From a virus: a DNA stretch of 26,202 nt. The notes below the pieces were generated by a model that saw only the letters and a list, made by a program, of their open reading frames with translations, had not been told where the DNA came from and did no database searches. Position numbers and translations under genes: made by a program. Location of the stretch: the IMG/VR virus record IMGVR_UViG_3300011114_000702, positions 1 through 26,202 of that record; one strand, written 5' to 3'. This document shows positions 1 to 25,468 of the stretch, piece by piece (the stretch's first letter is position 1; every line of letters starts with the position of its first letter).

Positions 1-201
1 GGTAAGAACAGATTTATGATAAATCCTTACATGGTATATTCAAGTAATCCTAGAAAGTTTGCAAGAGCATCAAGACACGCTGAGTATTTAGATATTATAA
101 AACACACATCGGCGGATAAACTAGCAGGGGAATTAACAGAACACTGTAACGAAATAGAAAGAGTATTTAAAGAATATACAAAGAAATATGGAAATTGGTA
201 A
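1..201 (+). CDS. unknown protein, left end possibly cut by the window
   Basis: The frame is open from base 1, so this may be the C-terminal end of a longer gene; the first in-frame ATG is at 16 and would give a 61-residue basic protein. I recognise no family. The visible part is helical and charged (HAEYLDII, ELTEHCNEIERVFKEYTKKY), without a signal peptide or membrane segment. It carries one of the CGGCGGAT sites (110), read as Ser-Ala-Asp. The stop at 199-201 is followed after one base by the start of the methyltransferase gene, so the two are probably cotranscribed. Whether the true start lies left of the window cannot be seen. Confidence 0.55.
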   Translation, partial: GKNRFMINPYMVYSSNPRKFARASRHAEYLDIIKHTSADKLAGELTEHCNEIERVFKEYTKKYGNW

Positions 202-202
202 G

Positions 203-847
203 ATGAGAGTATTAGTAGCTTGTGAAGAAAGTGGAACGGTAAGGGATGCTTTTATAAGAATGGGCCACTATGCTATTAGTTGTGATTTAAAAGATACTAG
301 AGTTCCAGGACCTCATTATAAAGGCTCTGTATTTGATATAATTAATGATGATTTTGATATAATGATAGGCCATCCGCCCTGTACTTTTTTAACAGTAACA
401 GGTAATAAGTGGATGAAGGATGAATATAAAGATAGGTTTCCAACTCGAAAACAAGATAGAGAAGATGCGGTTGAGTTCTTTATGAAGCTGGCTAATGCTC
501 CAATACCTAGAATATGTTTAGAGAATCCCGTGGGTATAATGAGTACAAGGTGGAGAAAAGCGGACCAATTAATACATCCTTATTTTTTTGGAGACGAGGC
601 TATGAAAGCAACTTGTTTATGGTTAAAAAACCTACCTAAATTAGTGCATCAAAAAGAGCCTGATTTGTTTTCCGGAGAGACTACACACGTATCTAAAGGC
701 GAACAAGTAGTTTTTAAGAGTGGTAAAAAAATGGCTAAATGGTATGTTGAAGCAGCCAAATTAAACTCACATGATAGGTCCGAAGTAAGAAGTGTAACGT
801 TCCGGGGTATAGCAAATGCAATGGCCTACCAATGGGGTAATTTATAA
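203..847 (+). CDS. phage-type DNA (cytosine-5) methyltransferase
   Basis: Predicted to methylate cytosine at C5 in phage DNA using S-adenosylmethionine. From the ATG at 203 (214 aa) the N-terminus MRVLVACEES matches the compact phage C5-methyltransferases; an upstream ATG at 188 would overlap the previous gene and add five residues, so 203 is preferred. The SAM-binding N-terminal loop (residues 4-11) is followed by an acidic strand end (CDL, 27-29), the catalytic P-P-C (58-60, Cys60 nucleophile) in GHPPCTFLT, and E-N-P (107-109), the motif IV equivalent. The family is shorter than bacterial C5 enzymes and has a reduced target-recognition region. A role in protecting phage DNA from restriction is inferred; the target site is unknown. 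It sits four bases before the next gene. Confidence 0.85.
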   Translation: MRVLVACEESGTVRDAFIRMGHYAISCDLKDTRVPGPHYKGSVFDIINDDFDIMIGHPPCTFLTVTGNKWMKDEYKDRFPTRKQDREDAVEFFMKLANAPIPRICLENPVGIMSTRWRKADQLIHPYFFGDEAMKATCLWLKNLPKLVHQKEPDLFSGETTHVSKGEQVVFKSGKKMAKWYVEAAKLNSHDRSEVRSVTFRGIANAMAYQWGNL

Positions 848-850
848 GGT

Positions 851-1189
851 ATGGAAGAGATAAAGCGTAAATCTAAAGTAATAACCTTAAAAGGAGAGGA
901 TGCTTTTATAAGACTCCTGGCAGCTCAATTTGGCACGACGGCGGATATGGAAATAAACCTTATCAAAGTCCTTATTAAATTTGACCTCTTTAATCCGTTC
1001 AATCTTGACAAGTATATAAGACGAAGGATACAGAAAGAGATGGATGTCCCTTACACAACATTAGGAACAGCTATAACCCGACTAATAAAGTCAGGTATAA
1101 TAGCAATGAATGGAAAGAATGTTTATGTTAATGTAGCATTCAGGGGACTAGATGAGATAGATTCAATAGTGTTTAAGAAAGCATTATAG
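851..1189 (+). CDS. small winged-helix-like DNA-binding protein
   Basis: A 112-residue basic protein. The middle and C-terminal half look like a winged helix-turn-helix: a helix ending RRRIQKEMDVP, a TTLGTAITRLIKSGII recognition-helix-like segment (about residues 69-84), then a short beta wing (GKNVYVNVAF, about 89-98). This arrangement resembles the DNA-binding domains of phage replication or transcription regulators, but no specific family is recognised. It starts three bases after the methyltransferase stop, so both are likely on one transcript. It converges with the leftward gene at 1203; only 13 bases separate the stop codons and I see no strong hairpin between them. A CGGCGGAT site lies at 939 (read as Thr-Ala-Asp). 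Confidence 0.6.
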   Translation: MEEIKRKSKVITLKGEDAFIRLLAAQFGTTADMEINLIKVLIKFDLFNPFNLDKYIRRRIQKEMDVPYTTLGTAITRLIKSGIIAMNGKNVYVNVAFRGLDEIDSIVFKKAL

Positions 1190-1202
1190 TTCCTTTTATA
1201 AA

Positions 1203-1460
1203 TTAATCTCTAGCAAGCCCTGAGTTACGCTCCTCGTATCGTTGCTCCCAATAGTCAAATGAAGTATCTTCGTAATGTTTTTGGCACTTCCAATTAATAT
1301 TTTCGAGTTCGGCGGATGGTATCAACTCACTAATCTCAAGACTTCCATTCTTAATAGAGTTTATTCTAATAGTAACTTCACCTTCTTCCTTGAAGTATAA
1401 GAAGTCTACATCAATATTGATTATAGCTCCATCAATAGTTATTTCAGTGTTGTATATCAT
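1203..1460 (-). CDS. hypothetical protein, last gene of the leftward block
   Basis: An 85-residue acidic protein of unknown function. The first half is beta-rich with alternating hydrophobic residues (IYNTEITIDGAIINIDVDFLY; EVTIRINSI), and the second half is rich in Trp, Tyr, Glu and Arg (WKCQKHYEDTSFDYWEQRYEE). No signal peptide or membrane segment. The ATG overlaps the TGA of the upstream 33-residue membrane peptide (ATGA overlap at 1457-1460), which implies translational coupling. It is the final gene of the leftward run and converges with the winged-helix gene. A CGGCGGAT hexamer lies at 1310 on the plus strand, that is on the strand opposite to the message. Confidence 0.65.
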   Translation of the reverse strand: MIYNTEITIDGAIINIDVDFLYFKEEGEVTIRINSIKNGSLEISELIPSAELENINWKCQKHYEDTSFDYWEQRYEERNSGLARD

Positions 1461-1558
1461 GGCTTCTTATTTTTATTTGAGTTTTCATAAATTCCACCTA
1501 AAATTATAATGATTATAATTTGAAAAAAAGTGCTTACCCAGTAATATGCGTGTTCCAT
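1457..1558 (-). CDS. 33-residue membrane peptide
   Basis: A very short open frame from the ATG at 1556-1558 to TGA at 1457-1459. The peptide has a short N-terminus with aromatic residues, one strongly hydrophobic stretch (VSTFFQIIIIIILGGIY, about residues 8-24) that would span a membrane, and a polar basic tail (ENSNKNKKP). The stop overlaps the start of the next gene by an ATGA, which supports real translation. Small single-span phage peptides often alter host membrane proteins or block superinfection, but nothing here identifies such a role. The leader upstream (1559-1595) follows the hairpin element at 1596-1667. Confidence 0.5.
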   Translation of the reverse strand: MEHAYYWVSTFFQIIIIIILGGIYENSNKNKKP

Positions 1559-1595
1559 AACTATATATTTTAATTGATTAGTAAAGTTAAATAAA

Positions 1596-1667
1596 AAGCC
1601 GCCTTATGTATTTTAGAAACCCTAAAACTATTAACCCCTTAATAGTAAAAATATCACTCGGCGGCTT
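1596..1667 (-). terminator. branched hairpin element, terminator-like on the minus strand
   Basis: An outer 8-bp stem pairs AAGCCGCC (1596-1603) with GGCGGCTT (1660-1667). Inside it lie two further hairpins: TTTTAG/CTAAAA (1611-1616 with 1622-1627, loop AAACC) and ACTATTAA/TTAATAGT (1627-1634 with 1639-1646, loop CCCC). Read on the minus strand, the outer stem is followed by TTTTTATTT, as in an intrinsic terminator. The plus-strand reading lacks a T tract. The complex internal structure is more than a terminator needs. It lies between the leftward gene ending at 1845 and the one starting at 1558. Confidence 0.5.
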
Positions 1668-1844
1668 AATATTGATTTAGTTTGATTTTAACGAGATTAA
1701 ATGCCTTTATAGTGTATTGTATTAGATTTATTGTAAAGTGCTGTGAGAATTGAAATTTGATAAGTAGAATTTGATTTTAATATCAAGTTGTTAGTTTGTA
1801 TTATACTTCCTGCTGAAAATTATCATTTATAATTCAAAGTTGAG
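1668..1844. other. noncoding gap in the leftward block
   Basis: No convincing reading frame in either strand. The segment holds a leftward promoter-like motif (1798-1810), the dyad repeat at 1831-1847, a weak TTGAT/ATCAA hairpin near 1772-1785 and two copies of TTTGATTTTAA (near 1680 and 1772). Together with the hairpin element at 1596-1667 it could be a leftward untranslated RNA of about 200 bases. Confidence 0.4.
1798..1810 (-). promoter_or_regulatory. leftward GGAAGTATAAT promoter-like motif
   Basis: Minus-strand reading GGAAGTATAATAC, matching the GGAAYTATAAT motif found before several leftward genes. Here no coding frame follows within 200 bases; the next structured element is the hairpin at 1596-1667. 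Confidence 0.35.
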
Positions 1845-1847
1845 TTA
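1831..1847. repeat. dyad repeat copy 1 (AACTCAACTTTGAGTTA family)
   Basis: AATTCAAAGTTGAGTTA, the reverse complement of the family consensus with one changed arm base. It overlaps the stop codon of the leftward gene at 1845. Confidence 0.7.
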
Positions 1848-2138
1848 TTTTAGTAGTTTTTTAACATCTTTAAATAATTCTTCTGATATAAATTTATGTG
1901 TTTTGTCTTGTGCATCGAACCTAAATTCTATTGATTCTTTGTATATTCTGTTTAAAATATCTTTCATTTCGGGCGCTTTTGATATTAACTCGGCGTTGGC
2001 AGTTGCCATATCTTCTCCGTATCTTGAGTCTATTGAACAAAGGTTACTACCTTCATCATCCCAAACTTGTGCCATTGTACAGTGTCCTATTTGTCCTCTC
2101 ATTGGACTAAAACTCCATGGTCCTTTACTATGTTTCAT
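1845..2138 (-). CDS. GPW-motif phage hypothetical protein
   Basis: A 97-residue protein that matches, by memory, a widespread family of small phage and mobile-element proteins beginning M-K-H-(T/S)-x-G-P-W and ending in an A-N-A-x-L-I-x-x-A-P-E-(M/L) helix. Here these appear as MKHSKGPW at the N-terminus and ATANAELISKAPEM around residues 45-58, followed by a helical tail with charged residues. The family's function is not known to me. The start is fixed by the conserved N-terminus. It begins two bases after the stop of the upstream leftward gene, so both lie on one transcript. The plus-strand frame over the same bases is a shadow. Confidence 0.75.
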   Translation of the reverse strand: MKHSKGPWSFSPMRGQIGHCTMAQVWDDEGSNLCSIDSRYGEDMATANAELISKAPEMKDILNRIYKESIEFRFDAQDKTHKFISEELFKDVKKLLK

Positions 2139-2140
2139 AT

Positions 2141-2362
2141 CTATATTGTTTTTACGTTAATTACTGGGCAAAGTTTCTTTATTTGATTAAAATTTTTAAG
2201 GCAGTCGGCGGCTGTTTTAGAGTAGAATAAGCGATATGCTAGTTCCTGATTAATATTATACATCCGTTCATAATTTGGTTTTTTAAAGCCTATTGTTATC
2301 ACTTCATTACTATACTTCATATAAGCTATAACATTGTTGTATGGTAGTATTGTGTGTATCAT
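2141..2362 (-). CDS. small protein, possible KTSC domain
   Basis: A 73-residue protein. The pattern of an N-terminal strand with Y-x-x-x-x-x-x-I-x-F (AYMKYSNEVITIGF), then Y-x-x-Y-x-I (YERMYNINQ), a helix, and a late S-x-x-x-x-(6)-F-N-x-I (SKTAADCLKNFNQI) resembles KTSC domains, which are small phage and bacterial proteins sometimes linked to RNA binding. The match is by eye and weak. It abuts both neighbours with two-base gaps. A CGGCGG hexamer on the plus strand (2206) underlies Ala-Ala-Asp. Confidence 0.6.
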   Translation of the reverse strand: MIHTILPYNNVIAYMKYSNEVITIGFKKPNYERMYNINQELAYRLFYSKTAADCLKNFNQIKKLCPVINVKTI

Positions 2363-2364
2363 TT

Positions 2365-2595
2365 TTAGTAGTAATCGTTAAAATATTCAACATTAATTAT
2401 CATAGGGCTTTCGCTTTTTTCAAACAATTCTATCTTTAAATTTTCGTTTTTTCCAGCAAACATATCGCTGTATCTTTCGATTACTGTATTTAAAGCGTCT
2501 TTCTCACATTTTGCTATGACTATAACACTTTTGATAACAGATGTTGGGAACATACAGTCTACTTTTTCGGTTGTGAATACTTTATATACATTCAT
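2365..2595 (-). CDS. hypothetical protein
   Basis: A 76-residue protein with an alpha/beta look: strand (VYKVFTT), strand (SVIKSVIVIAK), helix (CEKDALNTVIERYSDMF), strand (LKIELFEK). No family recognised. It has the AAGCCATG start context also seen at 3425, 3664 and 1460. Its leader contains the motif GGAATTATAATATAAA ending about 25 bases before the ATG, so it may begin its own transcript. Ends two bases before the next leftward gene. Confidence 0.65.
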   Translation of the reverse strand: MNVYKVFTTEKVDCMFPTSVIKSVIVIAKCEKDALNTVIERYSDMFAGKNENLKIELFEKSESPMIINVEYFNDYY

Positions 2596-2614
2596 GGCTT
2601 ATAGTTTTAGGTGA

Positions 2615-2630
2615 TTTATATTATAATTCC
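2615..2630 (-). promoter_or_regulatory. leftward GGAATTATAAT motif before the 2595 gene
   Basis: Minus-strand GGAATTATAATATAAA. TATAAT ends about 25 bases before the ATG at 2595, the same spacing as at 2926 and 3245. Proposed as a promoter -10 region; no clear -35 box accompanies it. Confidence 0.4.
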
Positions 2631-2635
2631 TTTTA

Positions 2636-2926
2636 TTAATTAAAGTTAAATTTCATTTCAATTTTCATCCGCGCGGTGTCGATTAAACTTCTGTTAAAAC
2701 CATTATCTGGTCCTATTGCTTCATCTAACCAATTAATATGGTTATATTTCTCACTAGCTTGACTAATTAACTGTATACGTTGTCTATACAGTATCATAAT
2801 CTTATTAGCTTTTTCACTTGGCGTGGCTTTACTCAATTTCACGTCTTTAATATCATTACTAACACATTTAATAAGTTGTTTAAATGCTTCGATATTAGCT
2901 TGGTCTCCTTTAGTTAATGGCTTCAT
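2636..2926 (-). CDS. hypothetical helical protein
   Basis: A 96-residue basic, mostly helical protein with no recognised family. Hydrophobic residues recur at helical spacing (ANIEAFKQLIKCVSNDI; ANKIMILYRQRIQLISQ), which suggests a small helical bundle or coiled coil. No membrane segment. The leader carries both leftward motifs: GGAACTATAAT (2949-2964 on the minus strand) and an AACCC run 16 bases before the ATG. A GCGCGG-rich stretch near its end encodes Thr-Ala-Arg-Met. Confidence 0.65.
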   Translation of the reverse strand: MKPLTKGDQANIEAFKQLIKCVSNDIKDVKLSKATPSEKANKIMILYRQRIQLISQASEKYNHINWLDEAIGPDNGFNRSLIDTARMKIEMKFNFN

Positions 2927-2948
2927 AGTTGTATGTATTAAGGGTTAA

Positions 2949-2964
2949 ATTATATTATAGTTCC
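2949..2964 (-). promoter_or_regulatory. leftward GGAACTATAAT motif before the 2926 gene
   Basis: Minus-strand GGAACTATAATATAAT, overlapping the TAG stop of the upstream gene (2964-2966) and 24 bases before the ATG at 2926. The AACCCTTAAT element follows it directly. Confidence 0.45.
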
Positions 2965-3245
2965 TATTTGTGTTTAGTGTGGTAATTTTCTGTGTGTGCA
3001 TATCCTAAATAACATCCATGGCAGTTTGCACTATAGTCTTTACCTAAATACACTGGTGACAAGTCTTCTTTATCTGCTATAAATATCACTTCGTTTACTT
3101 CATCTCCTGTCGACATAGATTTGTATGTATCTACTCTGCTATAACTTGAGCTTCTTACTTTATCAATCACTGTAAATTTAACTGGAGTAAATGTTCCGTA
3201 GTTTGTATGCTGAACTTTTGGGTTTATTATCTTAATATCTTTCAT
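2964..3245 (-). CDS. hypothetical protein with Cys/His-rich tail
   Basis: A 93-residue protein of unknown function. The N-terminal two thirds are beta-rich (KIINPKV, TFTPVKFTVIDKV, NEVIFIADKED). The C-terminus has a Cys-His-Gly-Cys pair followed by His residues (AHTENYHTKHK), which could bind a metal, though the set is not a standard zinc finger. Its TAG stop lies inside the GGAACTATAAT motif of the next gene's leader. Its own leader has GGAACTATAAT at 3265-3280 and AACCC 17 bases before the ATG. Confidence 0.65.
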   Translation of the reverse strand: MKDIKIINPKVQHTNYGTFTPVKFTVIDKVRSSSYSRVDTYKSMSTGDEVNEVIFIADKEDLSPVYLGKDYSANCHGCYLGYAHTENYHTKHK

Positions 3246-3264
3246 GGGGTTAAATTTTATAGGG

Positions 3265-3280
3265 TTTATATTATAGTTCC
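3265..3280 (-). promoter_or_regulatory. leftward GGAACTATAAT motif before the 3245 gene
   Basis: Minus-strand GGAACTATAATATAAA, 24 bases before the ATG at 3245, immediately after the stop codon of the 46-residue gene upstream. Confidence 0.45.
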
Positions 3281-3284
3281 TTTA

Positions 3285-3425
3285 TTAAATTGGATTAGAT
3301 GATAGCATTACAAACTGTCCGTATTTATCTATCATTTGTTGTTCAAAATGTGTCAAGTCTTGCGTATCTGTGTAAATTTCTGTTATTGGTCCGCGCGGTG
3401 TCAATAGTTTTATTTCGTATTTCAT
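3285..3425 (-). CDS. 46-residue hypothetical protein
   Basis: A short frame from the ATG at 3423-3425 to TAA at 3285-3287. The peptide begins MKYEIKLLTPRGPITEIYTD and continues with a helix containing FEQQMIDKYG. No family recognised. Support for translation comes from the AAGCCATG start context shared with three neighbours, the GTAACCTTT/TATAAA promoter-like module 19 bases upstream (3445-3474), and the repeated leader motif directly after its stop. It fills a gap that would otherwise be empty in a tightly packed block. Confidence 0.6.
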   Translation of the reverse strand: MKYEIKLLTPRGPITEIYTDTQDLTHFEQQMIDKYGQFVMLSSNPI

Positions 3426-3444
3426 GGCTTTAAAGTTTAAAATA

Positions 3445-3474
3445 TTTATACTAATTTACTTATACAAAGGTTAC
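3445..3474 (-). promoter_or_regulatory. leftward GTAACCTTT-N15-TATAAA promoter-like module
   Basis: Minus-strand GTAACCTTTG at 3474-3465 and TATAAA at 3450-3445, with the same offset as the rightward copies at 6163 and 6375. Placed 19 bases before the ATG at 3425. Confidence 0.5.
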
Positions 3475-3475
3475 A

Positions 3476-3664
3476 TTATAGCTCCATTTGTAATTTAACG
3501 TGTCCTATTCTTGTACTTATACGTCCGCTATCTTTCCAAAAAATTAGCGTTTTCTCTCCAAACATATTAACGTGTTTATATAATACTTTTGGTGTTTCTT
3601 TAACTTCTGCATTACTGCAAGTTGCTAAAAATTCTCTGCGGTTGTTTAATTGTCTAGTATTCAT
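3476..3664 (-). CDS. hypothetical protein
   Basis: A 62-residue basic protein, function unknown. It has a helical N-terminus rich in Arg and Asn, then two probable strands (PKVLYKHVNMFGEKTLIFWK and RIGHVKLQ). No membrane segment. The start has the AAGCCATG context, and AACCCCTTAATAA lies with its last C 17 bases before the A of the ATG. The stop codon is embedded in a GGAGCTATAATG sequence that runs directly into the promoter-like module of the next gene. Confidence 0.6.
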   Translation of the reverse strand: MNTRQLNNRREFLATCSNAEVKETPKVLYKHVNMFGEKTLIFWKDSGRISTRIGHVKLQMEL

Positions 3665-3717
3665 GGCTTCTAATTATTAAGGGGTTAAAATTATTATTTA
3701 TCAATCGGCGGGCGTTA

Positions 3718-3915
3718 TTAAATAATCTGTTTAATAGTCTGTTCTATCTGTTCAGTTGTCTCAAACTCTCCACTGTTCATTTCTCCATATATTTCTATAA
3801 AGGCGGTTATAACTTTATCTTGTTTAATGTAGTACCCAATATACTCACCGTTAAGTAATATATCTGTATGGGCTTTTGTATCTTCTGTTTCTGTATGGTT
3901 TATATAGCTTATCAT
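3718..3915 (-). CDS. hypothetical acidic protein
   Basis: A 65-residue acidic protein. A beta-hairpin-like segment (DILLNGEYIGYYIKQDKVITAF) is followed by an acidic helical tail ending in EQIEQTIKQII. No known family. The leader holds GGAATTATAA and dyad repeat copy 2 (3940-3956), about 25-40 bases before the start. The segment between its stop and the next gene contains a CGGCGG hexamer (3706) that is not in any frame. Confidence 0.6.
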   Translation of the reverse strand: MISYINHTETEDTKAHTDILLNGEYIGYYIKQDKVITAFIEIYGEMNSGEFETTEQIEQTIKQII

Positions 3916-3939
3916 AATTTCTAATATTTAATAGTTTTT

Positions 3940-3956
3940 AACTCAACTTTGCGTTA
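3940..3956. repeat. dyad repeat copy 2
   Basis: AACTCAACTTTGCGTTA, with one changed base in the right arm. It lies between two leftward genes, next to a GGAATTATAA motif (3953-3963, minus strand). Confidence 0.65.
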
Positions 3957-3972
3957 TAATTCCTTTTATTAA

Positions 3973-4230
3973 TTATACTGCTAGTCTTTTAAATGTTTGG
4001 TTTGTTAGTTTCTCTTTTTTAATATGTCTATATAATATCTTTGCTTGGTTAAAATAGTTCTTTGCTCCTCCTCTGCAACCTAACATTAAGTGTTGAAAAA
4101 ACCATTGTTCACCAACTTTATATTTAAGCGCGAAGCCTTCAAAGTTTATATTTTTAACATATACAATAAAATTAAATTTGTTAACTTCTACTTGTATAGT
4201 TCCGTTTTTGTTTACTATTACTTTATGCAT
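3973..4230 (-). CDS. hypothetical basic protein
   Basis: An 85-residue basic protein, function unknown. The first part is beta-rich (KVIVNKNGTIQVEVNKFNFIVYVKNI), followed by a GEQWFFQHLMLGCRGG segment and a Lys/Arg-rich helix (NYFNQAKILYRHIKKEKL). The Gly-Gly and basic helix could contact nucleic acid, but this is a guess. The stop is followed by AATAAAAGGAATTATAA, the leftward repeat motif. Confidence 0.6.
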   Translation of the reverse strand: MHKVIVNKNGTIQVEVNKFNFIVYVKNINFEGFALKYKVGEQWFFQHLMLGCRGGAKNYFNQAKILYRHIKKEKLTNQTFKRLAV

Positions 4231-4307
4231 GGTTTCTATTTGTTTAATTAGTTAATAAATTAAAAATCGTTTTTGCGGTTCGGCGGCTATATCTATTTAT
4301 ACTATTA

Positions 4308-4553
4308 TTATATATCTTCACATAATACTTCTAACTCTTCTAAACTCTCTATAGGTTCATTAACACTAAAGCAGTCTACGTCTTCTATCTCTTCTATATT
4401 AGTATCTTCATCTATATCATCATGTGTTAAGTTTACCGTTGTTCCTCCCTCTGCTACATACCACCTACTACCGTCTCTATTCTCTACTACATATACGGCT
4501 GTATCTCTTAGGCTTATTACTCCGCTCTGTGTTGTTATCTCTCTATTCTTCAT
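4308..4553 (-). CDS. hypothetical acidic protein
   Basis: An 81-residue, strongly acidic protein. A beta-rich start (SGVISLRDTAVYVVENRDGSRWYVAEGG is written here only as positions 10-37) is followed by a tail with Asp/Glu in most positions (HDDIDEDTNIEEIEDVD and ESLEELEVLCEDI). Small acidic phage proteins can mimic DNA, but no specific family is seen. The 136-base leader up to the next gene (4554-4689) has a GGAGGTATAAG sequence near 4662-4672 on the minus strand and a copy of AGTCGTTTGTTGTCG that recurs at 5790. Confidence 0.6.
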   Translation of the reverse strand: MKNREITTQSGVISLRDTAVYVVENRDGSRWYVAEGGTTVNLTHDDIDEDTNIEEIEDVDCFSVNEPIESLEELEVLCEDI

Positions 4554-4689
4554 ATCTTTAAGTTTAAATTGTTATTTACCTCTTTTATTTAACTCTTATT
4601 CTCTTGTAGTCGTTTGTTGTCGGCTATTATATAAACCTTTAATGTACGGTATTATATAATTCTTATACCTCCAACATATTAATACTTAA

Positions 4690-4938
4690 TTAGTTACGGT
4701 TTTTAATTCTCTCTAGTTGGTGGTTTATTTCAGCGTATAAATTGCTTATTAAGTCGCTTAAAACGTCGTTTAGTTGGTATAAATCTAGGTCGTATAAGTC
4801 GTTAAAAGCCTGGTTTAAGTCTATGTTAGGCTGTGTAATAGTATAATTATCTAATATACAGGCTATTGCGTCTAATTTAGCTCTTTTCTCGTCCGCCATC
4901 ATGCGGTTTAATTTGGTAGTTATTTGTGGGTTTTTCAT
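4690..4938 (-). CDS. hypothetical helical protein
   Basis: An 82-residue acidic, helical protein of unknown function. A longer frame back to 5013 exists, but the ATG at 4936-4938 is preferred: it is preceded by AACCCCTTTAAAAT with the last C exactly 17 bases upstream, as at other leftward starts, and the extra 25 residues look non-coding. The body has regular hydrophobic spacing (AKLDAIACILDNY; LNQAFNDLYDLDLYQLNDVLSDLISNLY), suggesting a helical bundle. Confidence 0.65.
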   Translation of the reverse strand: MKNPQITTKLNRMMADEKRAKLDAIACILDNYTITQPNIDLNQAFNDLYDLDLYQLNDVLSDLISNLYAEINHQLERIKNRN

Positions 4939-5017
4939 AATCTTAAATTTTAAAGGGGTTAAAAATGTTAAAAGTCTGTAAACATTGGTATTCGCTCGGT
5001 GGACAAAACGCATTTTA

Positions 5018-5395
5018 CTAGCTTAATTCTTCTAATAATTCGGCTTTTAGTTCCTCGTTTAAATCTTCATCCCAATTGTTTTGGATTACATTTAAGTTAT
5101 TTAAAACTTCCTCACCTAAAATATATGTGTACATATTACAAACGTGTTCCGCTTCGCTAAAATCTGTATTAACAGTTCCAAAGTTATTTAATTCATAATC
5201 TTTGATAGTTTCAATAGCGTTAAAAATTCCGCCATTTTAATTTAACCATTTTTCAGCATCGTATCGGCCAATGATAAAATAATCTGTATTAAATACTTCG
5301 TTATGTATTTCGTTTACTGGTTTATCATTTAATCTATTATCATTAATAGCGTCAATAATAAGGCTTTTTAATTCTTGTTGAGTTTGGTAGTTCAT
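5018..5395 (-). pseudogene. conserved small protein split by an in-frame TAA
   Basis: From the ATG at 5393-5395 a frame runs 52 codons to TAA (5237-5239), and the same frame then continues open for 72 codons to TAG (5018-5020). The two halves read as one protein: NTDYFIIGRYDAEKWL before the stop, then GGIFNAIETIKDYELNNFG, TDFSEAEHVCNMYTYILGEE and an acidic tail after it. This order resembles, from memory, a small-protein family common in Bacteroidota plasmids and phages (YxIGxYxAxxxL, FxAIxxxxxYExxNFGE, TDxSxxExVxNMxxYIxGEE). The second half has no early ATG. It may be a nonsense mutation, a sequencing error or stop-codon readthrough. The leader has AACCCCTTAATAA 17 bases before the ATG. Confidence 0.65.
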
Positions 5396-5434
5396 AATTT
5401 CTATTTATTAAGGGGTTTATAATGTTTGCTTATT

Positions 5435-5442
5435 CAAATATA
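5435..5442 (-). promoter_or_regulatory. leftward TAnnTTTG (-7) box
   Basis: Minus-strand TATATTTG, the Bacteroidota -7 consensus, about 40 bases before the first leftward gene (5395). No clear TTTG -33 box is found at the usual distance. It is the likely start of leftward transcription. Confidence 0.4.
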
Positions 5443-5497
5443 TAAACTCTTTAGGCTTATTATTAAATATTGGGTTGAACGGTTAAACAAATTTGTT

Positions 5498-5779
5498 AGT
5501 GGTAAATTACCTTTATGAGTGGTATAATTGGAGCTTAAAAAACGTGTTAAATTTTACCCTATTTACTTAACCTTTATCCTATGGCTAAAATCGTATCATT
5601 TGAATAAAACCATGCCAAACTCACATAAATTTAAACTATTACATAAGCGGATATAATCCAAGATAAGCGGTAATGGCTCAAATAGGTAATTGTTGTCGGT
5701 TAATCATGTGCCAAACTTCACGTAAATATGTTAAATTATAAACTATTACACGAGTGGTTATATAGCTTGATGAGTGGTA
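5498..5779 (+). repeat. three pairs of 20-base-spaced AGYGGW repeats
   Basis: AGTGGTA at 5498 and 5518, AGCGGAT at 5646 and AGCGGTA at 5666, AGTGGTT at 5753 and AGTGGTA at 5773. Within each pair the start-to-start spacing is exactly 20 bases, or about two helical turns, so a protein could bind both on one face. Most are preceded by TRA or similar (TGAGTGG, TAAGCGG, CGAGTGG). The arrangement is like iterons or operator half-sites. Confidence 0.6.
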
Positions 5780-5811
5780 ATAGGCAAATAGTCGTTTGTT
5801 GTCGTTTATTC
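5611..5811 (+). repeat. two degenerate ~100-base direct repeats
   Basis: Unit A (5611-5704) and unit B (5705-5811) are adjacent and share, in order, CATG-CCAAAC-TCAC-TAAAT, TTAAA, AAACTATTACA, a pair of AGYGGW repeats, GGTAATRG, CAAATAG and a TTGTTGTCG end. In unit B CTATTAC can pair with GTAATAG across the AGYGGW pair; in unit A the same stem keeps pairing through a G-T change. AGTCGTTTGTTGTCG also occurs at about 4607. Confidence 0.55.
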
Positions 5812-5812
5812 T

Positions 5813-5829
5813 GACTCAACTTTGAGTTA
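5813..5829. repeat. dyad repeat copy 3
   Basis: GACTCAACTTTGAGTTA, directly after direct-repeat unit B in the control region. Confidence 0.65.
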
Positions 5830-6162
5830 TAAACGTGTATTGTTTAGCTATCTGGTTTTGGACCGTCGGCGGATTAGTAAAATGATTATGCAAGGCGGCG
5901 GACGTATCAAAGTATTAATTTACTATAACGACTATAACAAATAATTATCATAGTTCACTAGCATAACATAAATAATTTACCATGTATCAATCTTAATTTA
6001 TCCATATATAAAAATCCTAATCTCAACAATCCATTTATTAACCCTATAAAATTATAGCCCCCCTATACGTCACTTGATTTCTGTTTGTGAATTTGAACCT
6101 ATATAGTACCATAGAAATAATTTTAAAAATAAATTTTTTTTGATGATTTTTTAATCAATAAC

Positions 6163-6192
6163 GTAACCTTTTATAAATAGCTTGCGTATAAG
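6163..6192 (+). promoter_or_regulatory. rightward GTAACCTTTT-N14-TATAAG promoter-like module
   Basis: GTAACCTTTT at 6163-6172 and GTATAAG with TATAAG at 6187-6192. It lies 15 bases before the ATG at 6208 and just right of the A/T block, and is probably the first rightward promoter. Confidence 0.5.
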
Positions 6193-6207
6193 GTGTAAAA
6201 TGGTATT

Positions 6208-6372
6208 ATGAGAATAACGGCGAGTAAGGGGTTTCTGAGACAAGTAAAGAAGGCGAGGGGAGGAAAGGTATTGATGTGGGATTGGATAGGTGAGAGATGG
6301 ATTGTAGGGGATAGAGATAAGGTAAAGAGGTTTAGTAAGTGGACAGTAGTAATAAAAGATTTTAGTAAATAG
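6208..6372 (+). CDS. 54-residue basic protein, G-rich gene
   Basis: A short frame from ATG 6208 to TAG 6370-6372, function unknown. The peptide is very basic and Trp-rich (ITASKGFLRQVKKARGGK, then MWDWIGERWIVGDRDKVKRFSKW), which fits a small nucleic-acid binding or host-modifying protein. The coding strand is strikingly rich in G and purines (runs such as GGCGAGGGGAGGAAAGG), unlike neighbouring A/T-rich genes, so recent acquisition is possible. Promoter-like modules sit just before it (6163-6192) and just after it (6375-6404), which supports it as the first rightward gene. Confidence 0.6.
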   Translation: MRITASKGFLRQVKKARGGKVLMWDWIGERWIVGDRDKVKRFSKWTVVIKDFSK

Positions 6373-6374
6373 TT

Positions 6375-6404
6375 GTAACCTTTTAAAAGGATAATAAGTA
6401 TAAG
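6375..6404 (+). promoter_or_regulatory. rightward GTAACCTTTT-N14-TATAAG promoter-like module
   Basis: GTAACCTTTT at 6375-6384 and TATAAG at 6399-6404, the same spacing as at 6163. TATAAG ends five bases before the ATG at 6410, so transcription would begin at or very near the start codon. Confidence 0.5.
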
Positions 6405-6409
6405 TGTGT

Positions 6410-6658
6410 ATGGAAGATAATAAAGGTGCCGCCGAAGTGGTGGATAGGAAAGAAGGATTTTATTGGGTTAAATTTAATGGTGTTGATATGGTTGCATATT
6501 ATAAAAGAGTTAATGAATGGTATATGATAAATGCCGCGTATTCGTTTAGAGAACATGATTTTAGTGAAATAGATGAAAGACAGATTAAACGTAATTGTGA
6601 TTGTGGAAGAGAATTAAACGTTCAGTATTATTGTAATATTTGTGATAATGATGAATAA
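6410..6658 (+). CDS. hypothetical protein with C-terminal zinc-ribbon-like cysteines
   Basis: An 82-residue acidic protein. An upstream GTG at 6404 overlaps the proposed promoter box, so the ATG at 6410 is chosen. The N-terminal part is aromatic-rich (GFYWVKFNGVDMVAYYKRVNEWYMI). Near the end four cysteines occur as C-x-C at 63 and 65 and C-x-x-C at 75 and 78, a zinc-ribbon-like knuckle pair. No family is recognised and no enzymatic motif is seen. It may be read from a leaderless mRNA. The next gene overlaps its end by about ten bases. Confidence 0.65.
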   Translation: MEDNKGAAEVVDRKEGFYWVKFNGVDMVAYYKRVNEWYMINAAYSFREHDFSEIDERQIKRNCDCGRELNVQYYCNICDNDE

Positions 6659-6839
6659 GTTAACCTTACTAGAAGATATAATGCCACACGAGATAGTGTT
6701 ATATTACTTTCCAACGGCGGATGATGAAGATATAAATTGGATATTATGGAATCAAACTACGTTTCCATTTGAGACTATAAAAGGAATGAATGATGATATT
6801 TATGAATGGTATTTAAAAAGTAACTCAACTTTGAGTTAA
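6648..6839 (+). CDS. hypothetical small acidic protein
   Basis: A 63-residue protein rich in Trp, Tyr and acidic residues (IVLYYFPTADDEDINWILWNQ; DDIYEWYLK). Function unknown. Two adjacent ATGs (6648, 6651) are both possible starts within the end of the previous gene; a GTG at 6642 is less likely. Its last five codons and stop are formed by the dyad repeat copy at 6822-6838, so the C-terminus NSTLS is supplied by that DNA element. This suggests that the repeat marks a gene border that may have been shuffled. Confidence 0.6.
   Translation: MMNKLTLLEDIMPHEIVLYYFPTADDEDINWILWNQTTFPFETIKGMNDDIYEWYLKSNSTLS
6822..6838. repeat. dyad repeat copy 4, perfect
   Basis: AACTCAACTTTGAGTTA: perfect 7-base arms AACTCAA/TTGAGTT around CT. 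It overlaps the last codons and stop of the gene ending at 6839. Confidence 0.75.
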
Positions 6840-6852
6840 AAAAATAATAATT

Positions 6853-7095
6853 ATGGAACATAAGTGGGAGGTTAGTTATATATTATGTGATGATAGATGT
6901 AGTTTAAATACATTATCTTATATTCCATTACCTGCATTTGGAGAAGGAGAAGGTAGATTTAATTCTGAACAGCGCGCGGATGTGGTTAAGTTTATAGGTA
7001 ATTATACAGTTCCTAAGTTTAATGAAAAATTTGAAGGTTGGGAAGAATTTAGAGATAAATTAAATGAAGAAATATCTAACTTATTTAAAAAGTAA
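6853..7095 (+). CDS. hypothetical protein
   Basis: An 80-residue protein of unknown function. It starts with a strand (KWEVSYILCD) and ends with a helix (EFRDKLNEEISNLFKK). The middle has Gly/Glu-rich GEGEGRF and NYTVPKFNEKFEGW. No membrane segment. The start is preceded by an A-rich leader (AAAAAATAATAATT), typical of translation signals in Bacteroidota. It follows dyad repeat copy 4 by about 14 bases and is five bases before the next gene. Confidence 0.65.
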   Translation: MEHKWEVSYILCDDRCSLNTLSYIPLPAFGEGEGRFNSEQRADVVKFIGNYTVPKFNEKFEGWEEFRDKLNEEISNLFKK

Positions 7096-7100
7096 AAATT

Positions 7101-7532
7101 ATGGAAAAAGAGAAATATTACACGCCAACAATAGAGGAATTTCATGTAGGATTTGAGTATGAAGAGGCTTTAGGAGATAAATTCAACTTTGTAAAAACTG
7201 TTTACGGAAACGATAGGGATGTTCCTTTATTAGATAGTGATGAGTCTTTATTACTATCGGTAGAAGCTGAGTTGAATGTAAATCTTATTAGAGTAAAGTA
7301 TCTTGATAGAGAGGATATAGAAAGTTTATTTAAAGATTACTATTGCTTTAAGTTTGTTAATGATACTGATTTTGAGTTTATTATTAGCGGAGTGTTATAT
7401 TATGGACTTTTTACTAAACACGATAGTATGATTTCATTTTACGAAGACGGATGGGAATCTTGTGTATTTAGAGGTGCTATTAAAAATAAATCAGAGCTTA
7501 ATAAGTTGATGAAACAATTAGGTATTAAATAA
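7101..7532 (+). CDS. hypothetical protein
   Basis: A 143-residue acidic protein, family not recognised. It shows alternating strands and helices: TPTIEEFHVGFEYEEA near the N-terminus, LLLSVEAELNVNLIRVKYL in the middle, then DFEFIISGVLYYGLFT and a final helical KSELNKLMKQLG. The Glu-rich N-terminus with EFHVGFEYE resembles short proteins often found in Bacteroidota phages and mobile elements, but that is only an impression. It is in an operon-like run with five-base and eighteen-base spacing to its neighbours. Confidence 0.65.
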   Translation: MEKEKYYTPTIEEFHVGFEYEEALGDKFNFVKTVYGNDRDVPLLDSDESLLLSVEAELNVNLIRVKYLDREDIESLFKDYYCFKFVNDTDFEFIISGVLYYGLFTKHDSMISFYEDGWESCVFRGAIKNKSELNKLMKQLGIK

Positions 7533-7550
7533 AAAAGTAATTAATTTAGC

Positions 7551-7892
7551 ATGGTGTCAACTAATAAGATAAAGCCTTACGCAATATACGATAGTGTATA
7601 TGATTTACAGTATATGGAACTGTATAGTGGTAGTGAAAGAGACCCTGTTGTGGATGCTTCATTATACGCCGCCGACAACTTAGCATTTGATTGTTCAGGT
7701 AATAAACTTCCTTTTAGCATACAAGTAGGATTAAACGCTCAGTACTTAGATAGAAGTAAATACTTGCTTGAGGACTTGGATAAGAGAGTAGTAAGATGTA
7801 GCCAACGTGTAACTGTAACTATTATCGTGTTTAATAATATGGATGATTACTTATGGTATGAAAACGGAGAGAAAACATGGATAGATTTATGA
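7551..7892 (+). CDS. hypothetical protein
   Basis: A 113-residue protein, function unknown. It is rich in Tyr and Asp (KPYAIYDSVYDLQYMELYSG), with a later basic strand pair (KRVVRCSQRVTVTIIVFNN) and an acidic aromatic C-terminus (DDYLWYENGEKTWIDL). The ATG is immediately preceded by TTAATTTAGC. A CCGCCG hexamer at 7669 encodes Ala-Ala-Asp. The end overlaps the next small frame by 16 bases, which suggests coupled translation. Confidence 0.6.
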   Translation: MVSTNKIKPYAIYDSVYDLQYMELYSGSERDPVVDASLYAADNLAFDCSGNKLPFSIQVGLNAQYLDRSKYLLEDLDKRVVRCSQRVTVTIIVFNNMDDYLWYENGEKTWIDL

Positions 7893-7999
7893 GCCAAACA
7901 TATAGTTATAGTACTTATAGAAATTACTTTATGAATAGTACAGGACACTTATTTATGAATGAAGAAGGAGATTTATTAATTTATTATAGATATAATTAA
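7877..7999 (+). CDS. 40-residue hypothetical peptide
   Basis: A short frame from ATG 7877 to TAA 7997-7999. The peptide is very rich in Tyr, Met, Ser and Asn (SQTYSYSTYRNYFMNSTG, then MNEEGDLLIYYRYN). No family is seen. It overlaps the preceding gene by 16 bases and is followed five bases later by another short frame, which fits a packed early operon. Evidence is positional only; a different start at the internal Met-Ser (7889) is possible. Confidence 0.45.
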   Translation: MDRFMSQTYSYSTYRNYFMNSTGHLFMNEEGDLLIYYRYN

Positions 8000-8004
8000 A
8001 AAAA

Positions 8005-8112
8005 ATGACACTTTACCAATATTATAATACGAAAACGGGAGGATTAGATGTTTACGATAAGTTAGTTTATAGAGATTATTTAATATTAAAAAACATATCT
8101 AATGGCAAGTAA
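8005..8112 (+). CDS. 35-residue hypothetical peptide
   Basis: A short frame from ATG 8005 to TAA 8110-8112, preceded by an A-rich leader (TTAAAAAAA). The peptide is Tyr- and Lys-rich (MTLYQYYNTKTGGLDVYDK, then LVYRDYLILKNISNGK). Function unknown. It overlaps the next gene start (8102) by eleven bases. It fills the only remaining gap of this operon; support is moderate and rests on packing and start context. Confidence 0.45.
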   Translation: MTLYQYYNTKTGGLDVYDKLVYRDYLILKNISNGK

Positions 8113-8326
8113 TTCAGAATACGAACAAAGAATAAGTTTTAAAAAAGACAAGTTATTTAAAATAGTTATGTTTGATACAAGTAATGGGGAAGAATTAAAT
8201 GCACAGAATGTGTTGAATAAATTAATAATAGAAAACAACTTAAAAGAAAAGTTTAGGAAATCTTTTATGGATTCAGTTATATCTGGAGAAGAAAGAATAT
8301 ATATAGAAAATTTAAAAACCAAATAA
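8102..8326 (+). CDS. hypothetical protein
   Basis: A 74-residue charged protein of unknown function: strand-forming FKKDKLFKIVMFDTSNG, then helical EELNAQNVLNKLIIENNLKEKFRKSFMD, ending in a basic ENLKTK. It could be an oligomerising or nucleic-acid-associated small protein, but no motif decides this. It lies four bases before the 262-residue gene and was chosen over two minus-strand frames that cover the same bases. Confidence 0.6.
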   Translation: MASNSEYEQRISFKKDKLFKIVMFDTSNGEELNAQNVLNKLIIENNLKEKFRKSFMDSVISGEERIYIENLKTK

Positions 8327-8330
8327 ATAT

Positions 8331-9119: not shown

Positions 9120-9121
9120 AT

Positions 9122-9958: not shown

Positions 9959-9962
9959 AAAA

Positions 9963-9979
9963 TAACTCAAACTTGAATT
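9963..9979. repeat. dyad repeat copy 5, diverged
   Basis: AACTCAAACTTGAATTA, lying between the nuclease stop and the next ATG. The left arm is intact and the right arm has changes. Confidence 0.5.
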
Positions 9980-9986
9980 AAAAACA

Positions 9987-10172: not shown

Positions 10173-10189
10173 TAAAAATTTACTAATTT

Positions 10190-21828: not shown

Positions 21829-22191
21829 ATGGAAAGAGGAATAGTAAAATCAATAGGAGTTACTAATGCTAGATTGGCGGATGGAATATGCCTAGGAACT
21901 AAAGAATTAACCTTATCTGATACGGCTCAATCTTTATCTTTTACTTCAATAATTACGGCGGACGTTAAATCTGTTTGTATTAAAGTTAAGAAAGCGGGAA
22001 GTCCAACGGATACTACTCATTTATTAAGATATACAATGGTATCTACCGATACTCCAACTACTTCACATGGTATGTGGATGGGAGATGGAGATTATTTTGA
22101 GATTACAAATAACACTAACATACAAGCATTAAAAGTTATTGCGGCAGAGGCTACAATAGCAAGTATATTAACAATAGAATATTACGGATAA
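21829..22191 (+). CDS. small virion or fibre-associated protein
   Basis: A 120-residue beta-rich protein (KELTLSDTAQSLSFTSII; VKSVCIKVKKAGSPTDT; LKVIAAEATIASILTIEYYG) with no helix-rich part, consistent with a small beta-sandwich like those in phage head-decoration or fibre-base proteins. No family named. It begins the fibre/lysis operon after the terminator and -7 box. Its TAA overlaps the ATG of the next gene (TAATG), so the two are translated together. Two CGGCGG-like sites occur here (21956; a near-match at 21876). Confidence 0.6.
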   Translation: MERGIVKSIGVTNARLADGICLGTKELTLSDTAQSLSFTSIITADVKSVCIKVKKAGSPTDTTHLLRYTMVSTDTPTTSHGMWMGDGDYFEITNNTNIQALKVIAAEATIASILTIEYYG

Positions 22192-22910
22192 TGACAAATT
22201 TTAGTAAAAAGAGAAGTATATCTCAGAAATCAGGAAGTGGAATTTATGGGGTTAAAGGAGCTGATATAGCATCTGCAACAACGACTAATTTAGCAGCTTC
22301 AGGTGGAGATTATAACCATATAACAGGAACAACTACTATTACTAGTTTAGGTACTGCTACGTCAGGATTTGAGAAGACATTAGTATTTGACGGAGCTTTA
22401 ATATTAACAAATAGTGCGAATATTATTTTGCCAGGAAATGTAAGTATTACTACGGCGGCAGGAGATACGGCTATATTTAGGAGTGAGGGTTTCGGAGTTT
22501 GGAGGTGTATATCTTATATGAGATATGACGAAACTTATACAAATTATACGCCCTCGTATACAGGGTTTAGCGTGTCTCCGACTATAACATCGGGAGACGC
22601 TAGGTGGAAAATGTTAACAAAAAATACTTGTCATGTAATAATTTGGGCAACTACATCGGGAACCTCAAACGCTACAACTATGACGGTTACATTACCGTTT
22701 ACGGCTGCTTGGACTGGTGGGGCTGGTTTTGGGTTACAACAATCTGTTATGGGAATATTAAATAGTGGCGCTCAAATAAACGGTTCTGTTAGAACTAGAG
22801 TTAGCAGCTCTAATATATTAGATTGTTATAACGGCGTTGTTGGCACGGCTTTTACGGCTAGTGGTGCTAAGGGAGTATTTTTAAATTTCATTTATCAAAT
22901 TGAGATATAA
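22191..22910 (+). CDS. tail fibre or spike protein
   Basis: A 239-residue protein with the fibre-like repeat pattern GADIASATTTNLAASGGDY, then TGTTTITSLGTA, then LTNSANIILPG and TTAAGDTAIFRSEGFGVWR, which is a domain common in phage tail fibres (a beta-helical or triple-stranded segment). The C-terminal half (residues about 125-239) is a Ser/Thr/Gly-rich beta-sandwich, as in receptor-binding tips. Length is short, so it may attach to a larger fibre or act as a short head/tail fibre. It probably recognises host surface glycans. Translationally coupled to both neighbours by TAATG overlaps. Confidence 0.75.
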   Translation: MTNFSKKRSISQKSGSGIYGVKGADIASATTTNLAASGGDYNHITGTTTITSLGTATSGFEKTLVFDGALILTNSANIILPGNVSITTAAGDTAIFRSEGFGVWRCISYMRYDETYTNYTPSYTGFSVSPTITSGDARWKMLTKNTCHVIIWATTSGTSNATTMTVTLPFTAAWTGGAGFGLQQSVMGILNSGAQINGSVRTRVSSSNILDCYNGVVGTAFTASGAKGVFLNFIYQIEI

Positions 22911-23539: not shown

Positions 23540-23542
23540 TTT

Positions 23543-23944
23543 ATGGCACTAGTAGATTTAGATAAGACGAGTTTTAAGTTTAAAGATGTAATATGGTTAA
23601 TTTCAGGAGCTTTGATAGTTGCTGGAGGAATATGGAGATTTGAATCTCGTATGAATAAAACTGACGATAATATTGAAGCGTTAGAACTTAAAATAATGTA
23701 TAAGTATGAGTTAGAGATTATTAAGATTAATAATAGAATTGACTTGATAGAAGCTAAGAAATACGCTCAAAGAAAGTTTTTTAAAGCAGATACATTAAGT
23801 TTAAATGATAATAGTTTAGTTCAGAATACGAGAACTAACAACGGCAAGGAGGAGAAAGAGAAGTATCCGCAAGTTTGTTTAATTATGCCTGCGAGAATAG
23901 AATGCCAAAGAAAGAAGTTTAATATTAAAAAATTAGTAGCATGA
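23543..23944 (+). CDS. membrane protein with coiled coil, first gene of lysis cassette
   Basis: A 133-residue protein with one N-terminal membrane span (VIWLISGALIVAGGIW, about residues 16-31), then a coiled-coil-like helix (DDNIEALELKIMYKYELEIIKINNRIDLIEAKK) and a basic Lys-rich C-terminus. Neighbouring genes are the amidase and holin. It may be an inner-membrane spanin component, a second holin or an antiholin; phage proteins with one span followed by a coiled coil occur in all three. It overlaps the amidase start by four bases (ATGA type), which suggests coupled translation. Confidence 0.6.
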   Translation: MALVDLDKTSFKFKDVIWLISGALIVAGGIWRFESRMNKTDDNIEALELKIMYKYELEIIKINNRIDLIEAKKYAQRKFFKADTLSLNDNSLVQNTRTNNGKEEKEKYPQVCLIMPARIECQRKKFNIKKLVA

Positions 23945-24570
23945 GTTCAAAATACACATATATCCTAGACCCAGGACACGGAGGGATGGTTAATAAAAAG
24001 TATGTAACACCAGGAAAACGCTCTCCAAAGTTTGACGATGGTTCTGTTTTATACGAAGGTGTAAATAATAGAGAGATTGTTAAGAAATTAATGATTGCTA
24101 TGGAGGCAGAAGATATCAAATGTATTGATATAGTGGCTTCAGAACAAGATGTGTCACTTCCTATACGCGTAGATAGAGCTAATAATTTAAGTAAAACTAA
24201 ACCATGTATTTACATCTCTATTCACTCAGATGCTAACGGTGATGGAAGTGTTTGGGATAAAGCAAGTGGATTAAGTGTTTATACATCAGTAGGACAAACT
24301 AAAAGTGATGAGTTTGCTCAGTTAGTAATTGATGAGTTGAAAGATAATTTTAAAGATGCTGTTAAGTGGAGAACTGACAGTACAGATAAGGATGAGGATA
24401 AAGAAGAAAACTTTTATGTATTAAAGAATACTAATTGTCCAGCTATTTTATGCGAATTAGGATTCCATACTAATAAAGAAGAGGCTACTAAGATGTTAAC
24501 CGCCGATTGGAAAAATAAAGTGGTGCTATCTATAATTTATGCTATAAAGAAATTTGAACTTAAAAACTAA
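23941..24570 (+). CDS. endolysin, N-acetylmuramoyl-L-alanine amidase (Amidase_3)
   Basis: Cleaves the bond between muramic acid and L-alanine in peptidoglycan at the end of infection. 209 residues, single Amidase_3 domain. Zinc ligands and catalytic Glu are all in place: D-P-G-H-G-G with His13, Glu39 in YEGVNNRE, His95 in ISIHSDA and Glu172 in CELGF. The length equals that of a domain without extra wall-binding modules. No signal peptide, so release through the holin is expected. Stands between the membrane protein gene and the holin gene, five bases before the latter. Confidence 0.92.
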   Translation: MSSKYTYILDPGHGGMVNKKYVTPGKRSPKFDDGSVLYEGVNNREIVKKLMIAMEAEDIKCIDIVASEQDVSLPIRVDRANNLSKTKPCIYISIHSDANGDGSVWDKASGLSVYTSVGQTKSDEFAQLVIDELKDNFKDAVKWRTDSTDKDEDKEENFYVLKNTNCPAILCELGFHTNKEEATKMLTADWKNKVVLSIIYAIKKFELKN

Positions 24571-24575
24571 ATATT

Positions 24576-24833
24576 ATGAAATACATTACATTCAAAAACA
24601 TCTACAATAGATTAGTAGCAGAAGGACCTACTTTCTTTAATAAACTAAGAAAAATCATGTTAGCTTGTGCTGCTTTAGGAGCTGCTTTAGTAACGGCTAG
24701 AAGTCAATATGCTACACAGTTAGCTTTTATTCCTGAGTCGATTGATGGTTACTTAATAGCTATTGGATTAGCAGGTACATTTGTAGCGTCATTAACGGTG
24801 AGTAATCCTGATAGTAATCCAAAAGTAAACTAA
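24576..24833 (+). CDS. holin candidate
   Basis: An 85-residue protein with two hydrophobic spans: KIMLACAALGAALVTA (about 27-42) and GYLIAIGLAGTFVASLTV (about 58-75), a basic N-terminus and a short polar C-terminus (NPDSNPKVN). Two-span class II-like holins have this form. It would form lesions in the inner membrane that let the amidase reach the wall. It follows the endolysin directly and its stop overlaps the spanin-candidate start (TAATG). Confidence rests on topology and position. Confidence 0.75.
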   Translation: MKYITFKNIYNRLVAEGPTFFNKLRKIMLACAALGAALVTARSQYATQLAFIPESIDGYLIAIGLAGTFVASLTVSNPDSNPKVN

Positions 24834-25468
24834 TGGAAGTTTCAGTAATAAAACACTCATTAATCACAATAGGTAAAGGAATAGTAATGCTACTTGCTTT
24901 AGCATTTATATTCACGAGGTTCGGCGGATGCGATAATAATATAACGGTAGAAAAACACGATAATTCTATCTATTTTGCTAAGATGAAAGCGGATAGCATT
25001 AAGTCATTAGCAAATGATATTAAAATTAAAGTATTAGAAGCTAAATTAGCTATTAAAGAACGCACGGAGGATAGTTTAGTTACATTGGCTTACAACACTC
25101 AAAAGAAGGCAGATAAATCAGCTAAAACAGTAAGAGATTTAATTAAGAAAGGTGTATGTGATACAGTAGAAGTATTAATAGCTTTAAATGACTGTGATAG
25201 TGTAAAACAAGCAGATAATAGAGTATTAGCATCTAAAGATTCTACTAATCAAGTATTAAGAGAAGAAAACACTACTTTAAAAGAAGATAATGTATTACAG
25301 AAAGGAATGGTTGATGCCGCACGAATCATATTAAAAAATCAAGCAGAAGACTATAAAACTCTTGAGAAAGAATCTAAGAAAGCATTAAGAAAACAAAAGA
25401 TTAAAACAATAGGCGCTATTATAGTTGCATCAATTACAGAAGTTTTAACTATATTTGCTTTGAAATAA
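24833..25468 (+). CDS. candidate one-piece (unimolecular) spanin
   Basis: A 211-residue protein with the layout of a unimolecular spanin. An N-terminal hydrophobic segment (IVMLLALAFIF, about 17-27) is followed by R-F-G-G-C with Cys33 as a lipobox-like lipidation site, which would anchor it in the outer membrane. A long charged coiled-coil-rich middle (DSIKSLANDIKIKVLEAKLAIKE; REENTTLKEDN) spans the periplasm, and a C-terminal hydrophobic segment (TIGAIIVASITEVLTIFAL, about 191-209) could sit in the inner membrane. Such proteins fuse the two membranes to finish lysis of Gram-negative cells. If Cys33 is not lipidated it would instead be a two-span inner membrane protein. Confidence 0.6.
   Translation: MEVSVIKHSLITIGKGIVMLLALAFIFTRFGGCDNNITVEKHDNSIYFAKMKADSIKSLANDIKIKVLEAKLAIKERTEDSLVTLAYNTQKKADKSAKTVRDLIKKGVCDTVEVLIALNDCDSVKQADNRVLASKDSTNQVLREENTTLKEDNVLQKGMVDAARIILKNQAEDYKTLEKESKKALRKQKIKTIGAIIVASITEVLTIFALK

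Follow-up and report, generated by a model that had tools for sequence, protein, structure and literature searches.

The stretch of DNA considered here (the window) comprises the 26,202 nucleotides of IMG/VR record IMGVR_UViG_3300011114_000702, a 26-kb piece of the genome of an uncultured tailed phage. It encodes a terminase, a portal and a major head protein with distant kin in crAss-like, Bacteroides and Flavobacterium phages, and the host of this phage family probably belongs to the phylum Bacteroidota. Its salient feature is the hexamer CGGCGG, found in excess over what composition and codon usage would produce and in a preferred orientation. We lean towards considering CGGCGG a directional DNA site under selection in one phage clade, where it would most likely act as a Chi-like signal. 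Relatives were drawn from IMG/VR with the terminase large subunit as query; among them, G007 (73.8 kb) and G008 (76.3 kb) were treated as complete because their two ends are near-identical (over about 180 and about 100 bases, respectively).

Excess and clade distribution of CGGCGG

The window, with a G+C content of 32.8%, contains 18 copies of CGGCGG on the plus strand and three of CCGCCG (6429, 7669 and 24500), for expectations of 0.65 and 0.30. The original prediction had the latter three at the same positions but counted only 17 of the former, missing the copy at 11248. Its claim of over-representation was borne out by the Markov check: the strand-specific expectation for CGGCGG is 0.64, 0.65 and 1.93 at orders 0, 1 and 2 (Poisson P about 1e-19, 1e-19 and 1e-11), and at these three orders it is the top-ranked over-represented 6-mer of the window. 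The expectation is 7.3 and 14 at orders 3 and 4, models that both include the motif itself. Nearly all copies are preceded by T (12) or A (four), with G in the remaining two, and the extended form CGGCGGAT occurs eight times, both as described earlier, while ATCCGCCG does not occur. T is preferred before the hexamer and AT after it, with almost no information beyond three bases.

We then compared these counts with a synonymous-codon shuffle that preserves the proteins and the codon usage. The window has nine sense copies where about 1.0 would be expected and two antisense copies where the expectation is 0.2, and the 7.1 kb outside open reading frames (ORFs) of 100 aa or more hold nine CGGCGG and one CCGCCG. 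In the relatives the sense copies are 24 vs. 1.2 (G007), 20 vs. 1.6 (G008) and 21 vs. 1.7 (G014), with antisense and noncoding copies likewise in excess, so that within the clade CGGCGG reaches up to about 20-fold its codon-shuffle expectation. Taking all 6-mers under the same shuffle, CGGCGG has z=22 in G007; in four isolate phages (FpV4, phi14:2, cr55_1 and DAC15) no 6-mer exceeds about 10. The excess goes beyond composition and codon usage, in line with the earlier statement that protein coding does not explain it. It is also specific to the hexamer: the permuted control GGCCGC has 0–2 copies per relative, and TGGCGG is the only strong one-base variant. Pooled oriented counts are 123 vs. 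18 for CGGCGG and 64 vs. 12 for TGGCGG, with a weaker excess for other one-base variants, although these ratios are inflated since the motif itself had served to fit the arm orientation, and homologues were counted separately.

It is very improbable that CGGCGG is a by-product of the codons, or pairs of neighbouring codons, preferred in the host lineage (Gly-Gly, xxC GGC GGx). The word is indeed among the top codon-context hexamers in several Bacteroidota genomes and the phage sites in ORFs are mostly on the sense strand. However, these sites are mainly in phase 1 (18 of 24 in G007) and not confined to sense phase 2, the antisense and noncoding excess contradicts such a context as sole cause, and the plus polarity continues through leftward genes (see below).

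The enriched genomes of the terminase tree all fall within a single supported clade; of its 11 rows, two are short fragments with few sites. The sister clade (eight rows, several of them short fragments) has 0.04–0.4 sites per kb, and the four isolate phages have 0–1 CGGCGG in 88–100 kb. CGGCGG sites are conserved and yet turn over. Among the aligned window sites, 40–67% are kept in five close relatives, against 15–22% for other GC-rich 6-mers, i.e., they are kept two to three times more, and of 88 distinct sites 47 are present in one genome only. An alternative polar word was sought in the motif-poor sister clade, where CGGCAG and CGGGTA are moderately enriched, CGGGTA mostly on the coding strand and CGGCAG in mixed orientation; we make no claim for either. 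A second over-represented word is GCGCGG/CCGCGC (often TGCGCGGAT), with 12–16 copies vs. about 1.4 expected in G007 and G008; it lies on both strands without clear polarity, and its window copies are at 2669–2676, 3391–3398 and 6974–6979.

Polarity and placement of the sites

The sites of the window, with the relatives in which they are kept, are the following.

110..115, plus: CGGCGG in plus-strand ORF 16-201; kept in L006
939..944, plus: CGGCGG in plus-strand ORF 851-1189; kept in L004, L006
1310..1315, plus: CGGCGG, non-coding strand of leftward ORF 1203-1460
1659..1664, plus: CGGCGG, intergenic among leftward genes; kept in L004, L006, L010, L012
2206..2211, plus: CGGCGG, non-coding strand of leftward ORF 2141-2362; kept in L004, L006
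3706..3711, plus: CGGCGG, intergenic among leftward genes; kept in L010
4281..4286, plus: CGGCGG, intergenic among leftward genes; kept in L012
5867..5872, plus: CGGCGG, noncoding; kept in L004
5896..5901, plus: CGGCGG, noncoding; kept in L006, L008, L010, L012
6429..6434, minus: inverse site (CCGCCG on plus), the sole minus site kept in six genomes
6715..6720, plus: CGGCGG in plus-strand ORF 6642-6839; kept in L004, L023
7669..7674, minus: inverse site (CCGCCG on plus)
8866..8871, plus: CGGCGG in plus-strand ORF 8331-9119; kept in six relatives
9291..9296, plus: CGGCGG in the exonuclease gene; kept in L023
10025..10030, plus: CGGCGG in plus-strand ORF 9987-10172; kept in L001, L004, L023
11248..11253, plus: CGGCGG in the terminase gene, the copy overlooked at first
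15714..15719, plus: CGGCGG in plus-strand ORF 15113-16252
21956..21961, plus: CGGCGG in plus-strand ORF 21829-22191
22453..22458, plus: CGGCGG in plus-strand ORF 22191-22910
24500..24505, minus: inverse site (CCGCCG on plus)
24922..24927, plus: CGGCGG in plus-strand ORF 24833-25468
1..10790, no strand: early block to the left of the terminase, dense in the motif (41% of the window, with 15 of its 21 sites)

The bias to one strand that had been proposed is real within the window (18 vs. 3) but does not extend genome-wide, the overall plus:minus counts being 23:13 in G007, 24:8 in G008 and 20:13 in G014. In the complete relatives the bias is arm-wise, and the one-strand bias of the window is part of that arrangement. 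Plus sites span one arm, even the roughly 10 kb just right of the polarity switch with their many small leftward genes, and minus sites predominate on the leftward arm. With homologous sites merged across 11 records, we found 20 plus and four minus sites in the early block of mixed and leftward genes (P=0.0015), 31 and six on the forward arm, and four and 11 on the leftward arm. The direction of transcription does not account for the polarity of the early block, given this 20:4 ratio, and the plus bias through the leftward genes stands as first described: the copies at 1659, 3706, 4281, 5867 and 5896 are intergenic, and those at 1310 and 2206 lie in leftward ORFs. The inverse site at 6429–6434, within the plus-dense block and conserved in six genomes, runs contrary to this trend.

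The switch in polarity is clear near 52 kb of G007. Positions 1..10790 of the window are homologous to about 54–65.6 kb of that genome, just to the right of the switch, which itself falls outside the window. A two-breakpoint fit accounts for 33 of the 36 G007 sites, better than all 300 label permutations. Nine coding sites of G008 have their coding strand in conflict with the fitted arm and eight of them match the arm, which was fitted on these same sites. General G-rich composition was rejected as a cause, as other G-rich 6-mers differ in polarity; they are without this contrast and still plus (25:12) in the G007 forward genes before the terminus. A promoter motif was rejected too, the sites lying within coding DNA in several frames and in plus orientation near leftward genes, with flanks nearly free of information beyond three bases.

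Density follows position as well. Between the switch and the terminase, coding DNA has about three times the site density of coding DNA elsewhere, and for noncoding DNA the ratio is higher still; this segment makes up 18% of the G007 genome and holds 15 of its 36 sites (P=0.0009), and in G008 it makes up 16% and holds 13 of 32 (P=0.001), the origin position in these comparisons being taken from the polarity switch itself. In both genomes the sites are concentrated between the putative origin and the packaging region, as is the case for Chi in lambdoid phages.

Such an arrangement could also arise if CGGCGG served the replication of the phage itself, e.g., as a lagging-strand priming or a primosome/helicase-loading signal. 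The polarity is arm-wise, in each arm the site would fall on what is presumed to be the lagging-strand template, its density is highest close to the putative origin, and the phage encodes its own DnaB-type helicase. We consider this quite unlikely, because outside the early block the sites are often 2–10 kb apart, too sparse for a needed priming site, and a scan of a few G007 proteins revealed no primase. Moreover, the known primase signals are trinucleotides. As a separate observation, the N-terminal half of the phage helicase gene (L030:5736-8360; G007 45736-48360, minus) matches intein (Hint) and LAGLIDADG homing-endonuclease families.

An asymmetric Type III restriction/modification site from which inverse copies have been purged is hardly credible, even if the asymmetric hexamer and its strong orientation bias have a precedent in phage T7, whose 36 EcoP15I sites (CAGCAG) all have the same orientation (PMC3874151). 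What the two cases share is an asymmetric hexamer of nearly uniform orientation in a phage. They differ in that CGGCGG is found in both orientations, arm by arm, and in that its main feature is the excess; purging accounts for lost inverse sites and not for an excess of sites, and restriction selects against sites, not for them. Opposed pairs, cleavable by Type III enzymes, are present in complete relatives such as G007 (61986 plus with 62084 minus; 33542 plus with 34932 minus). The original prediction had named recombination, packaging, replication and modification as possible roles of a polar motif. A polar motif acting at the DNA level is supported by the excess beyond codons, the sharing within the clade, the conservation and a polarity that, in the early region, does not follow transcription, and recombination tied to replication fits it best; modification is weak, given that restriction selects against sites and that opposed pairs occur.

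A probable Chi-like signal and its possible reader

CGGCGG is most likely Chi-like in function, a candidate that we do not class as a Chi site proper. Chi sites are recombination signals by which other phages withstand, or turn to their own use, the nuclease that their host directs at DNA ends. A helicase-nuclease acting at double-stranded DNA ends (of the RecBCD/AddAB type, probably that of the host) would enter phage DNA where a fork is broken or an end is free and would read CGGCGG in one orientation, upon which degradation would stop and recombination would start. The many copies kept by the phage would protect its DNA and channel repair or the formation of concatemers, their orientation being polarised by replication. 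The polarity switch would correspond to the replication origin, and the motif would be carried by the host as well.

Like the Chi of E. coli and lambdoid phages (GCTGGTGG), CGGCGG is short, asymmetric and rich in G, occurs in excess in phage DNA and is concentrated between the replication region and the terminase/packaging region (PMC3784561). In lambdoid phages Chi is placed between origin and packaging site, and it is strongly over-represented in phages without recombinases (Bobay et al., 2013; PMC3784561). It differs in its sequence, in its much stronger excess and in coming from crAss-related phages. As for the orientation, Chi is known to favour the leading strand in E. coli, a property that is not universal. 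For B. subtilis and S. aureus the skew is reported not to be significant, and for P. syringae there is none (PMC5959072), whereas polarity is a main feature of CGGCGG. The known Chi sequences of these species are AGCGG (B. subtilis), GAAGCGG (S. aureus), GCTGGCGC (P. syringae) and GCTGGTGG (E. coli) (PMC5959072). Those of Firmicutes and Pseudomonas share with CGGCGG a length of 5–8, G-richness and GCGG or GGCG cores, although none is identical to it.

A phage-encoded protein might read CGGCGG instead, i.e., a recombination, packaging or genome-organising factor, with no involvement of a host Chi system. The genes concerned are these.

8331..9119, plus: conserved exonuclease partner gene, function not assigned
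9122..9958, plus: exonuclease (PHROG 298), a possible phage recombination function
10791..12824, plus: terminase large subunit, used for finding relatives

A DNA methyltransferase and an amidase are also encoded in the window. The enrichment tracks the phage clade, the pattern is in no sampled bacterial genome, and the exonuclease and its adjoining partner are conserved near the dense block. However, both genes are conserved in motif-rich and motif-poor relatives alike, the sister clade included, and no candidate reader was recognised. The predicted structure of the partner (mean predicted local distance difference test score, pLDDT, 65) matches only uncharacterised phage proteins, e.g., one of Flavobacterium phage FCV-1. 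A phage reader seems unlikely to us, if worth keeping in mind; host-read and phage-read versions may both be compatible with the data.

Several observations weigh against a Chi-like signal. The phage-encoded exonuclease means that dependence on host recombination may be absent, and the excess, about 20-fold over the codon shuffle, far exceeds that of Chi in E. coli, which is roughly 2-fold (PMC3784561). In G008 the two-breakpoint fit (29 of 32 sites) merely equals the permutation maximum. The boundary at the terminus side is fuzzy: a minus polarity of the forward genes before the presumed terminus (region C), apparent in single genomes, was discarded because merging homologues left a mixture of seven plus and five minus sites. 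A repeat search near the polarity switch gave no clear origin repeats. The host was sought through prophage relatives and not identified, the search yielding only one distant terminase in a Bacteroidetes metagenome-assembled genome. The phage pattern is absent from >50 sampled Bacteroidota genomes, most of them represented by just 20 kb, samples that could miss Chi at an E. coli-like density. Finally, where Bacteroidota genomes do have an excess of CGGCGG, the copies fall mostly in a single codon phase (Gly-Gly, xxC GGC GGx). In G140, G086 and G240 (L069-L088, L145, L147, L162-L181) it is the first or second hexamer over the synonymous shuffle, almost all in phase 2, a codon-pair effect; in G240 there is some excess on the antisense strand and in noncoding DNA as well.

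Choosing Bacteroidota genomes by their TCGGCGGAT counts was dropped, as the reversed control TAGGCGGCT includes a stop codon. Separately, three Bacteroidota genomes (G065, G162 and G202) have no TCGGCGG in about 4.2 Mb each, with 240–460 copies of the reversed control, a strong avoidance.

Chi-like function remains the reading that we favour. That CGGCGG is specifically the Chi-type signal of the host lineage, probably Bacteroidota, recognised here through its phages by an abundance about 20 times the expected, its arrangement by arms and its highest density from origin to packaging region, is a tentative proposal that we would sooner doubt than assert. The Chi sequences tabulated in one paper are from Proteobacteria and Firmicutes only (PMC5959072), and none for Bacteroidota was found in the papers searched. 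The word in excess in this phage clade is a direct candidate for testing on the AddAB/RecBCD enzymes of Bacteroidota. It could be used as a handle on host identity and, for crAss-related phages, to mark the direction in which they replicate, and a strand-aware, codon-shuffled screen could reveal Chi-like words in other viral contigs without a cultured host.

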